From Desulforudis sp. (lineage in GTDB: Bacteria > Bacillota > Desulfotomaculia > Desulfotomaculales > Desulforudaceae): a stretch of DNA of 45,730 bases. Shown here piece by piece: positions 22,366 through 33,205 of the stretch. The stretch is from contig JAHRFU010000024.1 in NCBI GenBank assembly GCA_019084485.1, forward strand, positions 1 through 45,730. The letters are read 5' to 3'. A program made the position numbers and the translations under genes. How positions within the stretch are numbered: position 1 is the first letter of the stretch; each line of letters opens with the position of its first letter. The notes beneath the pieces are model-generated. The model made no database searches, had not been told where the DNA came from, and saw only the letters and a program-made list of their open reading frames with translations.

Positions 22366-24082
22366 GTTTCAGAAGCAGTTCCTGCTGGTGACGGCCCCTA
22401 TTCGCGATCACGTCGCAGAAGGCCCAAGTCAACTCAGGGTCGAACTGGGTGCCGGAGCAGTTCTTCAACTCAGACAGAGCCTCGGCGCCCGTCATTGCTC
22501 TACGGTGCGGACGGTTGTTGGTTATCGCCTCATAGGCATCCACAATGGCCAGGATGCGCGCTTCCACGGGGATCGCTTCACCCGCAAGCCCAAGCGGGTA
22601 TCCCTGTCCGTTCCACCACTCGTGGTGCTTAAGGATTAAGTCGGCAATCATTACTAGGCTAGGAAGCGATTGTGCGATTCGGTATCCGATTTCACTGTGC
22701 CGCTGCACTTCCATTTTTTCCTCAGGACTTAGTGATGCCGGTTTAAAGAGAACATGGTCAGGGATGGCCACCTTGCCGATGTCGTGAAACTGGGCCAGTA
22801 GGCGGAGTTCGGTTATCCCCTGTTGGGCCAGTCCAATTCTCTGACCCAGAGCGACTACCAGGTCTTCCATGTGCTCAGCGTGTCCTTCGGCCAGGAAGTC
22901 TTTTTCTTTCAGGGCTTTTGTCAGGATTTGAAGTGTGACGCTGTGGGTACTTTCGCTTCGGAGCAGCTTGTCGCGATACATATTGTTGTCTGCTTCCCTG
23001 AATAGTTCATTCACCCCCACCGTATCGCCGCTACTTACCGCAAACCCCACGGACAGACTCACGGGCAACTCCGGATTCGTTTGGTTGTAGTCGGCTATTG
23101 AGATCCTGATTCGATTGCAGGCTTCCTCAACACTTACAGCATCGCTCCGGGGGAGAATAGCGGCGAATTCATCCCCCCCGATCCGGGCGACGACATCATT
23201 TGTCCGGAAACAGCTCTGGATCAACTCAGCCGCCTTTTTGAGCAGCAAATCACCGACTGCATGTCCCAGGGTGTCGTTCACAAACTTCAGAGCATCCAGA
23301 TCACAGACGATAAGTCCCACTGGAGTGTAGCGACCTCCCGCCAGTCGGCGCATCTCCTCTTCAAAATAGGAGCGATTATAGACTCCGGTCAGCGAATCGT
23401 GCAGGCTTAGAAACCGGAGCTGCTCCTCCGCCTGTTTACGTTCGGTGATGTTTCGGGCAATGCTCTCGAGGGCCACGATTTCCCCCGCCTCATTAAAAAC
23501 GGGTACAATATTCTGTTCAGCCCAGACGATACCCCCATCCTTACGAACATACCTCACCAGAAAAGGCTCGTTCCGGGAGACCAAAGATTGGCTGATGCCG
23601 GTAACCAGTTTAATGTCATCCGGATGTACAATCCGTAGATGGAGGGTGGGGTCATTGTAAAACTCTTCCGGACTGTACCCCGTAATGGCTGTAACTGCTG
23701 GGCTCACGTATTCCCAATGATGGTTTGGCTTGATCCGGAAACGGAAGATTACGTCCTGGCCGTTTTCAATGAGCTGCCGGAAACGCTCCTCCGTTCTTAA
23801 GAAGTCACGCTCGCGCTTCAGGTTTGTCAGCAACACCCGGCGAAAACTGAAAAGGAACACGGTACTGATCAGAGCGGCGAAGCCTACACACATGAACCAA
23901 TACAGGGGTATCGTGGGATCCGGAAAGAGGGTTTCGTGAAGATGCAGGAATAGCGTGAAGGCCAGGGTTATCCCAATCACGTAGTAAATGGTAAGGGACA
24001 GAGTTCGCTTCCTTGCCGCAATACCTGTGTCATCACGGCTACAACCAGTCGTGCCATATTTTTGTTGATTCGGCTGGTCCAT
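22358..24082 (-). CDS. Membrane PAS-GGDEF-HD-GYP protein (cyclic-di-GMP turnover)
   Basis: A 574-aa protein. Two N-terminal hydrophobic segments (about residues 25-45 and 55-78) are followed by a PAS domain with LTGVYN linker, a GGDEF domain (RIGGDEFAAIL) and a C-terminal HD-GYP domain (FHDIGKVAIPD and HHEWWNGQGYP). The GGDEF domain has a product-inhibition site, RTND, five residues before GGDEF. It can thus in principle both make and break cyclic-di-GMP. ATG 24082 is chosen because GGGGAG lies 5 nt upstream; ATG 24109 has no SD. Its C-terminal end overlaps the lipoprotein relic by 8 nt, convergently. Confidence 0.9.
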   Translation of the reverse strand: MDQPNQQKYGTTGCSRDDTGIAARKRTLSLTIYYVIGITLAFTLFLHLHETLFPDPTIPLYWFMCVGFAALISTVFLFSFRRVLLTNLKRERDFLRTEERFRQLIENGQDVIFRFRIKPNHHWEYVSPAVTAITGYSPEEFYNDPTLHLRIVHPDDIKLVTGISQSLVSRNEPFLVRYVRKDGGIVWAEQNIVPVFNEAGEIVALESIARNITERKQAEEQLRFLSLHDSLTGVYNRSYFEEEMRRLAGGRYTPVGLIVCDLDALKFVNDTLGHAVGDLLLKKAAELIQSCFRTNDVVARIGGDEFAAILPRSDAVSVEEACNRIRISIADYNQTNPELPVSLSVGFAVSSGDTVGVNELFREADNNMYRDKLLRSESTHSVTLQILTKALKEKDFLAEGHAEHMEDLVVALGQRIGLAQQGITELRLLAQFHDIGKVAIPDHVLFKPASLSPEEKMEVQRHSEIGYRIAQSLPSLVMIADLILKHHEWWNGQGYPLGLAGEAIPVEARILAIVDAYEAITNNRPHRRAMTGAEALSELKNCSGTQFDPELTWAFCDVIANRGRHQQELLLKPT

Positions 24083-32403: not shown

Positions 32404-33189
32404 TTAAGCTCCAGGGGCGGATTCCGGGCGGAAGAAAGCGCACTTTTCCCGGCGGCAGCCGTGTGGGTGACGGTGGCTATCACGACAGGTGACACGGGAC
32501 ACATCTGCAGGAATCTCCACGTGCAGGTATTCGTGGGCCAGAGCAGCAGCTTCCTTAAGTGCCACCCGGAGAAAGTTCTTGCAACAGGACGGACCGGCAT
32601 TGGAGGACATTGCATCCGTCACCCGGGCGGTAATGCGCATGGTGATTGCGGTCTCGCGGTTTCGGGGACAGGACGCCCCCAGCAGGACACTGAAACAGGC
32701 TCCGATCGCCGGGGAGAGGCCGCACACCCCGGTCAGTCCGCAGAACGCGGCGATCGCTTGCCGTCTGGTGCGCAGCATCGCTTCGTTCACTTTTTCATCC
32801 GTAACGGCCAGGCTGCCCTCGTTTCTGACGGCGACCATCAAGGCGGCGGAGGCCACCCAGGCATGTTCACAGCCCAGCATTGGCAGATCAAGGGTGTGCA
32901 CCAGCCTTTCGGCCACGGCAATGACATCTTTTTCCTGAGCGGCGAGAGCCAGAGTACGGATACGGTCGAACAATTCCGCACCGTGGCAGCGATTACAGAT
33001 GAAATGACCCTTCGGACACACCACGTATGCCTGTTCAGAGTTCCCGCACCGGCTGCACTGAATATCCCGGCCTTCAGTCAGGTAGGTGAGGGGAGAGCCG
33101 CAGATCTTGCAGTTTTCCCGGTGGTCTTCAGATGCGGCCCGGCCCGGCCCGCACGCAGTCGGCCCTCAGCCACGACTAAAACTGGTCAT
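32404..33189 (-). CDS. DUF5714 protein, candidate selenoprotein (in-frame UGA at codon 8)
   Basis: The frame opens with ATG 33189, 11 nt after GGAGG (33205-33201), reads MTSFSRG, then UGA (33168-33166), and continues without a break to TAA at 32404. If UGA is selenocysteine the product has 261 aa, with U8 and C13, two zinc-ribbon-like pairs (C27/C30 and C45/C48), then C58, C65 and C68, and the DUF5714 core (FCGLTGVCGLSPAIGACF). The only usable later start, GTG 33024, would remove the conserved ribbon. A hairpin at 33153-33133 (TGCGG with CCGCA, then CC with GG, loop GGGCC) lies 12-33 nt after UGA, in the place of a bacterial SECIS. A nonsense mutation is the alternative. Confidence 0.75.
33133..33168 (-). 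promoter_or_regulatory. Possible bacterial SECIS after UGA
   Basis: UGA is at 33168-33166. The stem TGCGG (33153-33149) pairs with CCGCA (33137-33133); after a G-G mismatch CC pairs with GG, closing a five-base loop that starts with GG. The apical loop begins 20 nt after UGA, in the range of bacterial SECIS elements, which need a G in the first loop positions. GC-rich sequence makes chance pairing possible. Confidence 0.5.
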
Positions 33190-33205
33190 AGTCCTAACTA
33201 CCTCC

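Follow-up and report, generated by a model that had tools for sequence, protein, structure and literature searches.

A stand-alone DUF5714 protein with a predicted N-terminal selenocysteine in Desulforudis sp., homologous to the first half of the double selenoprotein MbdU

A gene on the minus strand of a 45,730-nucleotide stretch of Desulforudis sp. DNA (contig JAHRFU010000024.1 of assembly GCA_019084485.1; the whole stretch is referred to as the window) very probably encodes a genuine selenoprotein. Judged from comparative sequence analysis, its product corresponds to the N-terminal half of MbdU, to which it is homologous, but consists of DUF5714 as a stand-alone form, with an in-frame UGA at codon 8 read as selenocysteine (Sec). 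The original prediction had proposed such a protein from the letters of the window, and it is upheld by conservation of both the UGA and a downstream hairpin in relatives and by the presence of a Sec system in the genome.

Direct reading of the minus strand reproduced the proposed order of Shine-Dalgarno sequence, ATG, a few codons, UGA and an unbroken frame, and the limits of the locus (32404–33205) are correct. A GGAGG motif (33201–33205) is separated by an 11-nt spacer from the ATG (33189–33187); GGAGG also lies upstream of the gene in a congener (locus L025). The codons ACC AGT TTT AGT CGT GGC follow, then the TGA (33168–33166), from which the frame continues without a stop up to the TAA at 32406–32404. 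With UGA read as Sec, the coding sequence (32404–33189) yields 261 aa, starting with MTSFSRGUGPTACGPGRAASEDHRENCKICG and ending with GA. An N-terminal tail is followed by a Cys-rich ribbon (residues 27–69; 32983–33111), which carries invariant Cys and His residues and gives weak zinc-ribbon/RING-like Pfam matches, and by the DUF5714 domain (residues 77–253; 32431–32961). The latter contains further invariant Cys residues and scores 155.4 bits against PF18978, where the Pfam threshold is 26.2 bits, placing the protein in the DUF5714 family.

An ordinary gene caller sees less of this gene: as had been anticipated, the mechanical open reading frame is a 206-aa fragment starting at GTG 33024 (32404–33024, minus strand). 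If the UGA were a true stop, the gene would consist of this fragment or start at a rare codon downstream, and the seven codons in front would be a leader peptide. The gene-caller result agrees with this, and the 47 codons between the UGA and 33024 would be open by chance with P ~0.29 at 65% GC; the open frame taken alone is therefore weak evidence, and the case rests on comparison. However, the fragment lacks the invariant residues C27, C30, C45 and C48, and no in-frame ATG, GTG or TTG exists between the UGA and GTG 33024, so that, as the original prediction held, no other start keeps the ribbon. Moreover, 20 of the 35 differences between the window and L025 in this stretch fall at third positions. 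This bias and the conservation of the UGA column across the family indicate that the frame is open for more than chance reasons. Given that the conserved UGA is accompanied by a covarying hairpin in relatives (see below), we regard termination at this codon as highly improbable.

Comparison with homologues supports Sec at residue 8 (UGA at 33166–33168). The L025 gene, which comes from an independent assembly and is 83–84% identical, has UGA at the same codon, and in the congener genome G007 the gene reads as in Desulforudis sp. SURF_60 (L024, L025). UGA occupies the same column at 29 distinct loci including the window, and in further members of the class. Homologues were found in Moorella, Desulfofundulus, Desulfoscipio, Acetoanaerobium, Alkaliphilus, Syntrophomonas and other Bacillota genera, nearly all of them with UGA. 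Scanning 113 genomes of the class gave strong matches (>350 bits) in 16, of which 15 have UGA and one (L075) has TCA. The usual tail is of the Cys-Sec type, e.g. NCUDPAPAGVGQHQ...ENCLICG, a Cys codon commonly preceding the UGA; in the window's genus the residue in front of Sec is Gly. More distant homologues have Cys forms, namely VVCCCPDEDH (L090, L091) and IICSCNTDH (L088, L096), whose spacing to the ribbon differs, making their alignment to the Sec column approximate. Thus, the position expected to hold Cys or Sec in homologues holds Sec in relatives and is matched by Cys tails in distant ones.

These data also bear on the idea that the UGA has taken the place of a normal sense codon through a sequencing or assembly error or a recent nonsense mutation. 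The assembly is a draft of 137 contigs and one relative does read TCA at this codon, but the occurrence of UGA at the same codon in L025 and other loci nearly refutes this explanation, which we consider negligible. The TCA (Ser) reading is shared by L032 (~4990) and L075, where the hairpin GGTGTTGGTCAGCACC is still in place; it reflects either the loss of Sec by a recent single-base change or a fault in the assembly. Hence, either Sec is not absolutely required or the assembly of these loci is wrong. A divergent DUF5714 group (L087, L089/L095) has UGA in other tail contexts, EKDUSCAPVSPVKEK and QKGCUMAPEPSPVQEK, and possibly represents a second Sec-type subfamily.

The GG-opening hairpin noticed some 20 nt past the UGA is real. 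It spans 33154–33132 (minus strand) and reads GUGCGGGCC-G-GGC-C-GGGCCGCAU, with nine pairs, one mismatch and a free energy of -15.3 kcal/mol. Its apical loop, GGC (or GGGCC), opens with GG at nt 22 after the UGA, leaving 21 nt between them. Published rules for bacterial SECIS elements specify a loop of 3–9 nt, a stem of 4–16 bp, a G within the first two loop positions, a distance of 16–37 nt from the UGA and an MFE <= -7.5 (PMC13188914). With a 3-nt loop, nine pairs, 21 nt and -15.3 kcal/mol, the window hairpin lies within all of these limits, giving a positive outcome to the SECIS check that had been recommended. Its stability is matched by 7 of 300 synonymous re-codings. The hairpin at the same place in L025 has -9.9 kcal/mol, and again 7 of 300 re-codings are as good.

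A hairpin at a similar distance is present at 27 other loci, with a loop that is mostly GGUC and starts ~18–22 nt after the UGA. The SECIS statistics exclude loci L065, L067 and L068, since an ordinary ATG appears to follow their UGA. Among 22 distinct sequences, 91.7% of cells are paired as compared to 24–55% for slid partners, and two-sided (compensatory) changes occur at 6/6 pairs tested; the hairpin register was chosen on the same sequences as these covariation statistics. Double changes were counted in 25 cells vs 7.9 ± 2.8 after shuffling, a comparison that may be inflated by relatedness; the slid control keeps relatedness and also falls far short. A covariance model built from the other family members found neither the window hairpin nor that of L025, indicating that the Desulforudis hairpins have diverged in sequence. 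As the window hairpin is GC-rich and escapes the model, its role as SECIS element rests on position, the published rules and stability. Similarity in sequence is no defining feature of bacterial SECIS elements, many of which share little with one another (PMC13188914). The best window hit of the covariance model, at 22724–22688, was rejected: it starts at a UGA, yet many stops occur in the frame around it. An Rfam search returned nothing beyond a sub-threshold chance match.

The machinery required for Sec insertion was sought in the genome that holds the window (as contig 66), and selA, selB, selD and tRNA-Sec were all found, as the prediction demanded. SelA (618 bits) and SelB are encoded adjacently on contig 54, the tRNA-Sec gene has the anticodon TCA, and the active-site motif of SelD (L019; contig 44, 3645–4568), GGGUAAK, also includes an in-frame UGA. 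Among carriers of the DUF5714 gene, 35/35 have a selA match over the cut-off, as compared to 28/40 comparison genomes, and all comparison genomes of the same order carry selA. Since the trait is common in the phylum, this co-occurrence lends weak support, amounting to consistency more than proof.

The original prediction knew of no described DUF5714 selenoprotein, but the N-terminal half of MbdU (NF045648) is one. As listed in a 2026 review from Haft and Tolstoy 2025 (cited in PMC13188914), MbdU is a metal-binding double selenoprotein with the motif CU and two Sec residues. NF045648 is the sole NCBIfam match of the window protein, aligning residues 18–257 with model positions 32–270 at 322.8 bits (cut-off 600). 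A full-length MbdU (L041, 780 bits) consists of DUF5714 and DUF2284 and has UGA sites in SDCUGSSSGAGQHNESQTENCQICGG and GGAPTUQK, the first Sec aligning with U8 of the window protein. Thus, a DUF5714 selenoprotein had already been described, in the form of a fusion. The window protein shares with MbdU the N-terminal Sec in the same column, the ribbon and DUF5714. In contrast to MbdU, which continues into DUF2284 with a second Sec, it ends after DUF5714; with 322.8 bits, one Sec and no DUF2284 it is not a full-length MbdU. Of the CU motif that precedes ENCxICG in MbdU it keeps the Sec, whereas the preceding residue is Gly, giving Gly-Sec for Cys-Sec. A search for a split MbdU with a separate DUF2284 gene found no DUF2284 in the genome. 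Within the set of papers searched, to which neither Haft and Tolstoy 2025 nor Haft and Gwadz 2023 belonged, DUF5714 is not named, nor does it appear in the main text of the deep-Sep paper. A phage search gave no match.

Other relatives place DUF5714 in further contexts. PF18978 proteins without Sec (the MHGPEHH clade and the CCC and CSC forms) share the ribbon and the motifs CGxxGxCG and GxxCC, and some carry a Cys near the N-terminus in place of Sec. L088:154–2217 (minus strand) encodes a single chain in which a Cys-type DUF5714 is joined to the radical SAM protein TrsS (NF045646, 659 bits), directly linking the two families; the window protein itself has no radical SAM domain. Minus-strand open reading frames at L043 and L046 encode DUF5714-AhpD/CMD proteins with a second UGA in CEPU. 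At L043, L046, L048 and L049, a conserved CKT-UGA occurs one to three codons from the end (CKTUGEY-stop, CKTUS-stop); L048 and L049 keep CKTUS and are devoid of AhpD. The CKT-UGA proteins are possibly triple selenoproteins resembling the C-terminus of MduS, although their final UGA could just as well be an ordinary stop.

Conservation of potential metal ligands is pronounced. In 25 relatives, C27, C30, C45, C48, C58, H62, C65, C68 and H69 of the ribbon as well as C107, C150, C156, C174, C202, C203, C235, C245 and C250 of DUF5714 are invariant. In a broader set that includes members without Sec, the ribbon, the equivalents of C150/C156/C202/C203 and the last three Cys residues are still invariant. 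This pattern in the alignments would fit a zinc ribbon with a structural role and, in addition, a further site for metal, and we give even weight for and against the protein being an Fe-S/Zn metalloprotein.

Structural models provide a lead as to the fold. The model of the window protein has a pLDDT of 83.7, with values <50 for residues 1–22, which together with the Sec they contain are probably disordered. Its best solved neighbours are four CyuA entries (Z 7.3–7.9 over 139–152 residues; next match 4.0). For a second model, made for another member with a broader alignment (pLDDT 85.7), PrpD and IRG1 came out on top (Z 6.1, 5.3, 5.2; next 4.3). The catalytic domain of CyuA is reported to be similar to the catalytic domains of serine dehydratase, of IRG1 (7BR9) and of iminodisuccinate epimerase, which belongs to MmgE/PrpD (PMC12647591), so that both models point to one fold group comprising the catalytic domains of CyuA L-cysteine desulfidase/L-serine dehydratase and of MmgE/PrpD. 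The structural Z scores stay below 8, and the serine dehydratase alpha family has no significant sequence similarity to DUF5714 (PF03313, SDH_alpha/CyuA; hhalign E 0.039, probability 1.3%). Foldseek comparison of the DUF5714 models with the PDB gave no significant match, and a PDB sequence search gave no match. We therefore treat a CyuA/PrpD-like fold as a lead. CyuA is a [4Fe-4S] cysteine desulfidase whose cluster is held by C287, C329, C336 (and C289) (PMC12647591). By a simple offset of the aligned ends, which is not an alignment, C336 of CyuA would fall near C203 and C287 near C150–C156.

With Sec accepted, its task might be thiol-disulfide redox chemistry in a Sec8-Cys13 site rather than metal handling. 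Sec is often catalytic in redox reactions, the vicinal Cys-Sec of many members could form a selenenylsulfide, and DUF5714 proteins weakly match the C_GCAxxG_C_C 'putative redox-active protein' family (best E 3.5e-4). However, the Cys five residues after U, which the original prediction had taken for a redox partner, is Tyr in L025 and not a family feature; the partner seen in the family is the Cys directly before Sec, and this vicinal Cys is absent from the window's genus. A thioredoxin-like fold is likewise absent among the structural matches. We consider a redox site rather unlikely.

Genomic neighbourhoods add further hints. Inspection of individual loci showed that genes for corrinoid activators resembling RACo, for methyltransferases of the MtaA type and for a LarA lie close by in some relatives, and cobalt-transport or cobalamin-type neighbours of relatives were named by reading sequences only. 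The neighbours in the window, a polysaccharide deacetylase and a branched-chain amino-acid ABC transporter (also named by reading), are uninformative on function. The invariance of Cys and His residues, the fold leads, the TrsS fusion and the corrinoid-methyltransferase neighbours incline us towards a metalloprotein with a Sec tail that takes part in metal or methyl chemistry of anaerobes, while any specific role in such chemistry is assigned with low confidence.

By analogy with established Sec biology, SelB with Sec-tRNA would bind the hairpin (33132–33154) and insert Sec at residue 8, whereupon translation would run on through the ribbon and DUF5714. The Sec would then sit on a flexible N-terminal tail ahead of the Cys/His ribbon, which probably binds zinc. 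In the helical DUF5714 domain, C150/C156 and C202/C203 may bind an iron-sulfur cluster within a CyuA/PrpD-like fold. The selenolate of the tail might serve the DUF5714 centre as a metal or methyl/alkyl ligand or as a redox partner, perhaps in a setting of anaerobic corrinoid, methyl-transfer or TrsS-linked chemistry. Sec-type DUF5714 proteins could accordingly be imagined as CyuA/PrpD-like enzymes with an Fe-S cluster on the invariant Cys residues and a mobile N-terminal Sec as reactive ligand, a proposal we offer as a long shot. That the substrate of such enzymes would be metal-bound or of methyl/alkyl type, and their setting TrsS- and corrinoid-linked anaerobic metabolism, is likewise speculative.

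Taken together, the sequence comparisons strongly suggest that the window protein is a stand-alone, Gly-Sec form of a selenoprotein family whose description is recent. Sec-type DUF5714 proteins of the stand-alone kind occur widely among anaerobic Bacillota and lack a dedicated NCBIfam model; they are therefore probably truncated by annotation, which, depending on the next start codon, would often cut before the zinc-ribbon-like cysteines. Recognising them enlarges the known selenoproteome and provides a clean SECIS series with covariation. The links among DUF5714, DUF2284, AhpD, TrsS and corrinoid methyl-transfer genes point to an undeciphered selenium-dependent pathway, and the CyuA/PrpD-like reading of the Sec-type proteins, if true, would define a new class of selenium-iron-sulfur enzyme.
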